Positions 12,351 through 14,271 of a stretch of DNA of 37,107 bases are shown in pieces. Source of the stretch: Acidobacteriota bacterium. GTDB lineage: Bacteria > Acidobacteriota > Polarisedimenticolia > Gp22-AA2. Within the stretch, counting starts at the first letter, position 1; each line of letters opens with the position of its first letter. Below the pieces are notes generated by a model. The model searched no databases and was not told the origin of the DNA. It worked only from the letters and a program-made list of their open reading frames with translations. A program made the translations under genes and the position numbers. The DNA is taken from positions 1 to 37,107 of the forward strand of contig QHXZ01000048.1 in the NCBI GenBank assembly GCA_003223165.1, written 5' to 3'.

Positions 12351-12490
12351 GGGTAAGGCCGTATCCCAAGGAGGGGCAGGAAAGACCCCGATGGCGTGAC
12401 TCCGTTAGGCTAGCGCGAAAAGGGCCGGCGGGTCAAGAGCGACCGGTCGCCGAGGGTCGCGGGTCGCTGGCCGGAACGGTTGCGGCCCGC

Positions 12491-12503
12491 TATATTCGTT
12501 CGC
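12491..12503 (+). promoter_or_regulatory. -10-like element giving leaderless geometry
   Basis: TATATT followed by 7 nt then ATG at 12504; the -35 is weak. Confidence 0.4.
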
Positions 12504-13508
12504 ATGAGCCGACGGGGCCAGGAAGCGGATACGCGGGCGGGCGTCACCCTGGGGGAGGACGAGGAGCAGGGGGAGGGGGCCGCGCCGGTCCCCGCCCGCC
12601 CGGCTCCGGTCCGGCCCGGACCGACGCTCCGGAGCCGTTTCCCGCGGCGGCTGCAGGTCCTCGCGGCGCTGGCGGCGCTGGCCGGCTGCGCCGCGCTCGG
12701 CATCGACGCCTTCCTGGTGGAACCGGGATGGATCGAAGTCGTACGGTCGATCGAGTTCGTCCCGTCGTTGCGGGCGAGCGCACCCGATCTGCTCCTGGTC
12801 CACCTGAGCGACACGCACATCCGCGACCTCGGCCCGCGGGAGCGACGCGCCATCCGGATCGTCAACGCCGCGCAGCCCGATCTCATCGTCATCACGGGGG
12901 ACATCGTGCACGGCGAGTCCGACCCGCTCGCGGTGGAGGCCTTCCTCGGCTCGCTGCGGGCCCGCTACGGGAAGTTCCTGGTCTGGGGCAACCACGATCA
13001 CTACAGGAAGACGGTGGAAGGCTGGGCCCCCGGCGCCGTGTCCCGCGCGGGCTTCGTCCTCCTGAACAACGCCAACCGGCGCGTGGACACGCCGGCGGGG
13101 CGGATCGACATCGCCGGGATCGACGATCCGGTCACCGGGCATGACAATCTCAAGACGGCCATGGTCGGGGTGTCGCGCCGCGACTTCTGCATCCTGCTGT
13201 CGCACAGTCCCGAGATCGTGCGCAGCATCGGCAACTGGGACATCGACATGGTCCTGGCCGGCCACACGCACGGAGGCCAGGTGCGCCTGCCGTGGCTCGG
13301 CGCGATCGTCGTCCCGTTCGGCACGCGTCCCTATGTCGAGGGCTGGTACGACGCTCCGGGCGACGTGCGGGTCCACGTCAACCAGGGTCTCGGCTGGTCG
13401 TACCTCCCGGTGCGCTTCCTGTGCCGCCCCCGCCTCGACCTGATCACCCTGCGCGGAGGCCTGCCGGCCGGCACGCGCCCCCGCGCCAGCATCGTCGGCC
13501 GAAGCTGA
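12504..13508 (+). CDS. Membrane-anchored calcineurin-like metallophosphoesterase
   Basis: HLSDTHI, ITGDIVHG, WGNHDHY, AGHTHGGQ. Confidence 0.92.
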   Translation: MSRRGQEADTRAGVTLGEDEEQGEGAAPVPARPAPVRPGPTLRSRFPRRLQVLAALAALAGCAALGIDAFLVEPGWIEVVRSIEFVPSLRASAPDLLLVHLSDTHIRDLGPRERRAIRIVNAAQPDLIVITGDIVHGESDPLAVEAFLGSLRARYGKFLVWGNHDHYRKTVEGWAPGAVSRAGFVLLNNANRRVDTPAGRIDIAGIDDPVTGHDNLKTAMVGVSRRDFCILLSHSPEIVRSIGNWDIDMVLAGHTHGGQVRLPWLGAIVVPFGTRPYVEGWYDAPGDVRVHVNQGLGWSYLPVRFLCRPRLDLITLRGGLPAGTRPRASIVGRS

Positions 13509-13533: not shown

Positions 13534-13564
13534 CGATCGGGCGTCGCGATCGGGCGTCACGATC
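13534..13564 (+). repeat. 13-nt direct repeats immediately upstream of a promoter
   Basis: CGATCGGGCGTCG / CGATCGGGCGTCA / CGATC at 13534, 13547, 13560, abutting the -35 at 13567. Confidence 0.75.
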
Positions 13565-13566
13565 TA

Positions 13567-13595
13567 TTGACACGTGATCGCCTCCATGTTATAGG
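13567..13595 (+). promoter_or_regulatory. Sigma70-like promoter of the Lys-rich microprotein locus
   Basis: TTGACA - 17 nt - TATAGG. Confidence 0.75.
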
Positions 13596-13878
13596 TTCGA
13601 GCGAAATCGCTTTCGATCGTCGATCGTGATCAGAGACACGCACAGCGTCGAAGTCGATCGATTCCGCAACGACGATCGGCAGCAGGCACTATTCATCCCG
13701 GGCACGACGTTCGTGGGCTCCCAGGGCCGGATGTCGGCGCAGCCCGGCGCGCAAGCAGTCAGCGAAGTCGACGGGCGCGAGCGCGCCCGTGACACAGCCC
13801 CCCGCTGGCAAGACGATCGTCGCAATGGAACGCGGGGAGCTCATCCCACCCGCAAGGCGGGAAAGGAGGTGAGGAGCC

Positions 13879-13932
13879 ATTCCCAAGAAAAAGAAGGCTG
13901 CCAAGAAGAAGGGGAAGAAGGGACGTAAGTAA
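13879..13932 (+). CDS. Candidate 17-aa lysine-rich microprotein, ATT start
   Basis: AGGAGGT SD at 13864-13870; ATT CCC AAG AAA AAG AAG GCT GCC AAG AAG AAG GGG AAG AAG GGA CGT AAG TAA = MPKKKKAAKKKGKKGRK. Confidence 0.5.
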   Translation: MPKKKKAAKKKGKKGRK

Positions 13933-13957
13933 GCTTCTTTTCTCCGTACTGCCTTGC

Positions 13958-13990
13958 GAGGGGTGACCGTCGTCACCCCTCATTTATTTT
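13958..13990 (+). terminator. Intrinsic terminator of the microprotein locus
   Basis: GAGGGGTGAC-cgtc-GTCACCCCTC-ATTTATTTT, 10-bp perfect stem. Confidence 0.93.
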
Positions 13991-14017: not shown

Positions 14018-14046
14018 TTGACAGCCGGCGCGGCGTTTGCCAGAAT
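14018..14046 (+). promoter_or_regulatory. Sigma70-like promoter of the zinc-ribbon-like small protein
   Basis: TTGACA - 17 nt - CAGAAT. Confidence 0.55.
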
Positions 14047-14070: not shown

Positions 14071-14271
14071 ATGAACTCGTCGAGGACCTGGAAGACGGGA
14101 GAGCACTGCCGCATCTCCGGCACCTACAGGTGCCTGAACTGCCGCGCTGCGGGCGTCGAGACGATCCGCGAGTTCGAGGCGGGGAAGGTCATCCCGATGT
14201 GCGACGTGGGACCGGACAAGGACGCCACCTGGCGGCTCGTCCGCGCCGCGCCCGCCCGGGCCGCTACTTGA
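14071..14271 (+). CDS. Small (66 aa) zinc-ribbon-like protein
   Basis: GEHCRISGTYRCLNCRAAGVETIREFEAGKVIPMCD; GGAGGAGG SD just upstream. Confidence 0.75.
   Translation: MNSSRTWKTGEHCRISGTYRCLNCRAAGVETIREFEAGKVIPMCDVGPDKDATWRLVRAAPARAAT

Follow-up and report, generated by a model that had tools for sequence, protein, structure and literature searches.

In the window, as the whole analysed stretch of 37,107 nucleotides is called here, a short lysine-rich reading frame that begins with ATT lies between genes for a calcineurin-like metallophosphoesterase and a 66-aa Cys-containing, zinc-ribbon-like protein (Table 1). The latter belongs to no Pfam or NCBIfam family at the cut-off. The window comes from a draft genome of 3.06 Mb in 207 contigs (G000), and its close relatives are Acidobacteria MAGs.

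The first-pass annotation had described an AUU-initiated Lys-rich frame with a strong Shine-Dalgarno sequence (SD) before it, a perfect 10-bp terminator behind it and a next gene with a promoter of its own. All of these are present in the window, and the frame is conserved in relatives. The proposal that the unit is transcribed separately is likewise supported by its own promoter, its terminator and the separate downstream promoter, so far as these can be recognized in the DNA. The 13-nt direct repeats and the TTGACA-17-TATAGG promoter, which had been said to abut, do exist, but a gap of 7 nt parts them. The leader, given as ~280 nt, measures about 260–280 nt in the window and not in relatives.

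Table 1. Features of the microprotein locus and its neighbours in the window
Feature	Position	Strand	Basis and remarks
5′ neighbour: calcineurin-like metallophosphoesterase	12480..13508	+	Pfam PF00149, E 1.9e-13
Two 13-nt direct repeats (92%), 5′ of the promoter	13534..13559	+	Repeat search; operator role not supported
Sigma-70-type promoter TTGACA-17-TATAGG	13567..13595	+	Sequence; -35 at 13567-13572, TATAGG at 13590-13595
5′ leader	13603..13860	+	Start placed by promoter spacing; unstructured, length not conserved
Extended Shine-Dalgarno GAAAGGAGGTGA	13861..13872	+	Pairs with the 16S 3′ end over 12 nt (by complementarity)
In-frame TGA overlapping the SD, 3 codons 5′ of the start	13870..13872	+	In 9/10 genomes carrying the gene
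Microprotein ORF ATT...TAA	13879..13932	+	Coding signature and start conservation; AUU start, stop TAA, product (f)M-PKKKKAAKKKGKKGRK
Intrinsic terminator, perfect 10-bp stem GAGGGGTGAC/GTCACCCCTC, U-rich tail ATTTATTTT	13958..13981	+	Sequence
Separate promoter of the downstream gene, TTGACA-17-CAGAAT	14018..14046	+	Promoter search: 1 found vs 0.1 in shuffles
3′ neighbour: 66-aa Cys-containing, zinc-ribbon-like protein	14071..14271	+	Synteny marker, 11/12 genomes of the order

Conservation of the unit and its transcription signals

When 100 relatives were searched with the DNA, the part from SD to terminator was matched in the same family and order. Using a start-codon-neutral pattern (an SD, 6–12 nt, and codons running into AAR AAR AAR), the locus was found in six genomes of the window's family f1 (G000, G001, G003, G004, G005 and G007) and in four of the sister family f2 (G008–G011); most genomes had no second match, and with the reversed pattern, used as a control, there were hardly any matches. 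The unit occupies the same locus, between the same two neighbours, in 10 of the 12 genomes of the order, and the 66-aa downstream gene is at the same place wherever the unit is carried. Since, in addition, an SD followed by a start and two lysine codons has a single match in the window and none in 100 shuffles of it, the unit is not a product of chance. In G002 (genome 63% complete) the neighbours are in place and the complete unit is missing from the syntenic site, so at least one genus can do without it. No unit and no neighbour could be found in G006.

In the window and three genomes of the sister family, the SD is complementary to the 16S tail over 12 nt. A perfect anti-SD complement of 8–12 nt is found in seven of ten genomes; in the remaining three the sequence is GGGGGTGA, with one G·U pair. 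In G008, a member of the same order, the tail GGATCACCTCCTTT was confirmed as far as CCTCCTTT, and hence for 11 of the 12 nt.

In G003, G005 and G007 the gene likewise lies behind a promoter, with the form TTGACA-N17/18-TATA[GC], and genes of the AUG type in G026 and G030 lie behind one with the form TTGACA-N17/18-TATATT. The distance from the -35 element to the start is 96–103 nt in G003 and G005, 187 nt in G007 and 312 nt in the window. Reading the upstream regions of relatives by eye revealed no such 13-nt repeats, and the regulated promoter that had been deduced from them is therefore not supported.

The terminator begins 24–28 nt past the stop codon in all ten genomes of the order carrying the unit. 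The stem GGGGTGA/TCACCCC is exact at the locus in nine of them and nearly unique in each genome, which suggests that constraint acts on the stem sequence as such. It is identical across the two families though the spacers differ, and the 3′ arm looks similar to the anti-SD tail of the 16S. Pairing of the SD with this arm was considered as a candidate and rejected, being only marginally better than for shuffled SDs (fractions of 0.02–0.64).

Such a stem, kept in sequence and not in pairing alone, together with the separate promoter, the strong terminator and the anti-SD-like arm, could belong to a structured or base-pairing regulatory RNA, in which the ORF would be incidental or would have a dual function. 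We regard this explanation as quite improbable. The leader folds no better than shuffles (z = -0.69) and varies in length, an Rfam scan of the window gave no match, and the duplex of SD and terminator arm beats shuffles, at about the 2–5% level, in a few genomes only. No conserved structure was found beyond the terminator, to which the fold of the whole unit (z = -3.3) appears mainly due. Moreover, the substitutions follow a coding frame. The structured RNA mentioned in the first-pass annotation is thus not borne out.

A run of Lys codons with a terminator behind it and a conserved gene beyond also recalls a leader-peptide attenuator, which would control the zinc-ribbon-like gene by readthrough. 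In G003 and G005 this gene does begin ~30–40 nt past the hairpin with no promoter visible by eye. However, it has its own promoter in the window, in G007, in G001 and even in G002, where the Lys unit is missing, which speaks against a regulated gene sharing the transcript behind the terminator; no antiterminator was noticed, and similar units elsewhere adjoin unrelated genes. Attenuation is, in our opinion, the least probable of the explanations considered.

Coding evidence and the start codon

The window peptide, fMet-PKKKKAAKKKGKKGRK, consists of 17 aa, carries a charge of +11 and is non-hydrophobic. The peptides of its family are IPKKKKAAKKKGKKGRK (window), IPKKKKAAKKKGGKKGRK, IPKKKKAAKKKGKKGKK, IPKKKKVANKKKGRKMKKGKR and IPKKKKGAKKKGGKMKKGKR, and those of the sister family follow the form IAAKKK[AG]KKTAKKKATKKKR. 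Pairwise in-frame comparison gave 44 synonymous vs 14 non-synonymous differences in f1 (first 11 codons) and 18 vs 3 in f2, with 0–2 synonymous differences in the two other frames. Lengths differ among relatives only by multiples of three, and third positions account for 13 of the 15 variable columns (7/8 and 6/7). Judging from this substitution pattern, the frame is a protein-coding gene under purifying selection. Of the grounds for rejection named in advance by the first-pass annotation, those open to sequence comparison, namely relatives devoid of the frame, SD or terminator, or non-coding substitutions, were checked and gave no refutation. An overlapping 100-aa ORF starting with GTG (13626-13928) was rejected, having almost no synonymous differences among relatives and running past its stop in G003. 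Comparison of the peptide with Pfam and NCBIfam gave no match, though a low-complexity query of 20 aa cannot score well, and a literature search on lysine-rich bacterial microproteins returned nothing relevant.

All six f1 genomes, representing three genera, start the frame with ATT, and all four f2 genomes, representing two, with ATA; the codon stands at a near-constant distance from the SD core. In f1 this column is invariant, while within the first 11 codons seven other third positions are variable. Because ATT and ATA each make up 2.4% of the Ile codons in the coding sequence of the window (ATC, 95.3%) and are fixed here nonetheless, the start is very unlikely to be an ordinary Ile codon. 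The in-frame codons 5′ of ATT in the window are TGA GGA GCC, without ATG, GTG, TTG or CTG, so ATT is the only usable start there.

Translation might instead begin at an in-frame GTG two codons upstream of ATH, the latter being an internal Ile; such a GTG, located after the TGA, is present in G005, G007, G008, G010 and G011. Three of these five genomes are from the AUA family, which makes the AUA assignment less secure than the AUU one. This reading is unlikely, however. Four of the six ATT genomes (G000, G001, G003 and G004) have no alternative start after the TGA that overlaps the SD, the GTG is separated from GGAGG by only 3 nt and falls inside the SD in G009, and internal Ile would be expected as ATC in 95% of cases. 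The GTG is part of the spacer, since the same spacer GGTGAGTGACC precedes plain AUG in unrelated bacteria (locus L085 and, nearly so, L078). From these comparisons the AUU start is near certain and the AUA start in the sister family likely. The core claim of the first-pass annotation is, on this comparative evidence, right but understated: the non-AUG start is a conserved trait of the whole order. That it is fixed order-wide, and that comparable genes outside the order use AUG, had been missed.

Near-cognate initiation and the proposed function

It is known that IF3 discriminates against near-cognate start codons and that infC, its own gene, is autoregulated in this way. To our knowledge, documented bacterial genes other than infC with AUU or AUA starts are very few: pcnB, ccpN, cvfC1 and citZ. 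In the window's family infC itself starts with ATC, with an in-frame stop 2–3 codons upstream in five of eight genomes (the G000:C5:421-630 region, L061, and loci L045, L046, L048 and L056). It offers an internal precedent for near-cognate starts, which had also escaped the first-pass annotation. In a genome of another family (G016), infC appears to use ATA.

The microprotein gene resembles infC in combining a near-cognate AUH start with a strong SD; the conserved AUU/AUA start and the strong or extended SD of near-cognate-start genes are both found at this locus. It differs in that the product is not IF3, so that any gating would be one-way and not autoregulatory. The rare start is also shared with pcnB (AUU in E. 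coli), ccpN, citZ (AUA), cvfC1 (AUU) and sigR (GTC). In contrast to these, the product here is a 17–21-aa, almost pure Lys peptide from a monocistronic unit. In Staphylococcus aureus, infC, cvfC1, ccpN and citZ have AUA or AUU starts with extended SDs at the first three, and the starts of ccpN and cvfC1 are conserved as well (PMC13009471). Reporters of cvfC1, ccpN and citZ reached ~10% of AUG activity in poor medium, and the AUU site of cvfC1 showed no medium dependence (PMC13009471). In Streptomyces, IF3 represses the non-canonical start of sigR (PMC5472188).

We propose that the locus encodes a stand-alone cationic microprotein, the translation of which is held low, probably under IF3 gating, by a near-cognate start for which an extended SD compensates, as in infC and ccpN. 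The probability of this reading is estimated as roughly 0.7. A housekeeping-type promoter would give a short monocistronic mRNA, ended by the hairpin 24–28 nt past the stop, and the extended SD would anchor 30S subunits on it. The AUU start (AUA in the sister family), a near-cognate codon of the kind known to be discriminated against by IF3, would keep translation low, and translation would probably rise when IF3 is in short supply relative to 30S subunits, as it does for infC. By analogy with known biology, initiation is probably low and IF3-sensitive.

The strongest alternative, to which we give somewhat less than even odds, is that AUU sets a constant low dose, as in pcnB, and that IF3 never varies enough to matter; the microprotein would then be real and unregulated. 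The ~10% expression from non-canonical starts in S. aureus and the AUU site of cvfC1, without medium dependence, agree with it (PMC13009471). On the other side, the same family keeps a non-AUG infC, normally an autoregulatory arrangement, although a constant dose is compatible with that too.

A charge of +11 on a non-hydrophobic 17-mer, a matter of composition only, leads us to speculate that the microprotein binds a polyanion, with rRNA/ribosomes or other RNA as the likeliest target and DNA or polyphosphate as alternatives. Lysine-rich histone H1-like bacterial proteins (Hc1/Hc2-type tails) have the same KKKAAKK composition, but the microprotein has 17–25 aa only, no domain and no match in Pfam/NCBIfam, where so short a query could hardly score. 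The tiny ribosomal proteins bTHX, bL37 and bS22 are likewise very small and very basic, without evident sequence resemblance to this Lys-Ala/Gly low-complexity peptide.

Gene finders limited to ATG, GTG and TTG cannot call AUU- or AUA-started genes. In this case a non-AUG start could be assigned throughout a bacterial order from comparative data alone, and the AUG relatives outside it supply a natural contrast that opens the contribution of the start codon to direct test.

Comparable genes outside the order

Elsewhere in the class and phylum, microprotein genes of this kind begin with AUG. Comparable Lys-rich ORFs, with AUG after the SD and then a hairpin, were found in families f3, f11, f12, f42, f48, f18, f36 and f56. 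Their peptides include MATKKKAAKKTAKKKAAKK (f11), MATKKKAAKKTAKKKVAKKKAMKKC (f12), MPMKKKTSKKKTTAKKSSKKK and MPAKKKAAKKSKKATKKK (f3), MPAKKKAAKKSTKKAKKGKK (f42) and MPAKKKAKKKAKKH (f18). These ORFs share one design, and their Lys-rich sequence makes deep homology between families unprovable. Among 34 matches in a collection of 84,980 species, short poly-K peptides with a non-AUG start occurred only in these Acidobacteria. Beyond this locus, a large group of genes for stand-alone poly-lysine microproteins behind strong SDs seems to have escaped annotation.

Apparently the same gene type occurs in other phyla. Mini-ORFs MPAKKKAPAKKAAAKKPAKKAAKKK and MAAKKKAAKKKKK, with SDs GGGAGGTGAG / AAAGGAGGTGAG and hairpin-like repeats downstream, are present at L083 and L105 (Verrucomicrobiota) and L078 (Limisphaerales), and in both Limisphaerales and Levybacteriota MAAKKKAAKKKKK follows a near-identical AAAGGAGGTGAGTGACC. 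Two Patescibacteria (Levybacteriota and Microgenomates) have Lys-rich mini-ORFs with the same SD directly upstream of secA, as identified by Pfam (L085, about 5980-5940, minus strand; L072, 1746-1778); the one at L072 also shares its frame with the last part of a methyltransferase-like ORF.

Tentatively, and with rather more doubt than confidence, poly-lysine microproteins of ~13–29 aa with strong or extended SDs may be seen as an overlooked, functionally constrained class of stand-alone genes acting on the ribosome or RNA across Acidobacteriota, Verrucomicrobiota and Patescibacteria, rewired from AUG to AUU/AUA in this order as an IF3-responsive output of initiation capacity.

In G024 (L034, 1-3030), an AUG-type poly-K gene lies between the genes of polyphosphate kinase and a Ppx/GppA phosphatase. 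This neighbourhood is suggestive of a possible link to polyphosphate; it was seen in one genome only and not in the others examined. At L153 and L154 (G150 and G107), the f18-type unit (MPAKKKAKKKAKKH / MPMKKKAKKKAKKH) is preceded by a conserved stretch, ttggtctccgggctctga.caagggagaaa.cgtt, which may be an RNA or regulatory motif.
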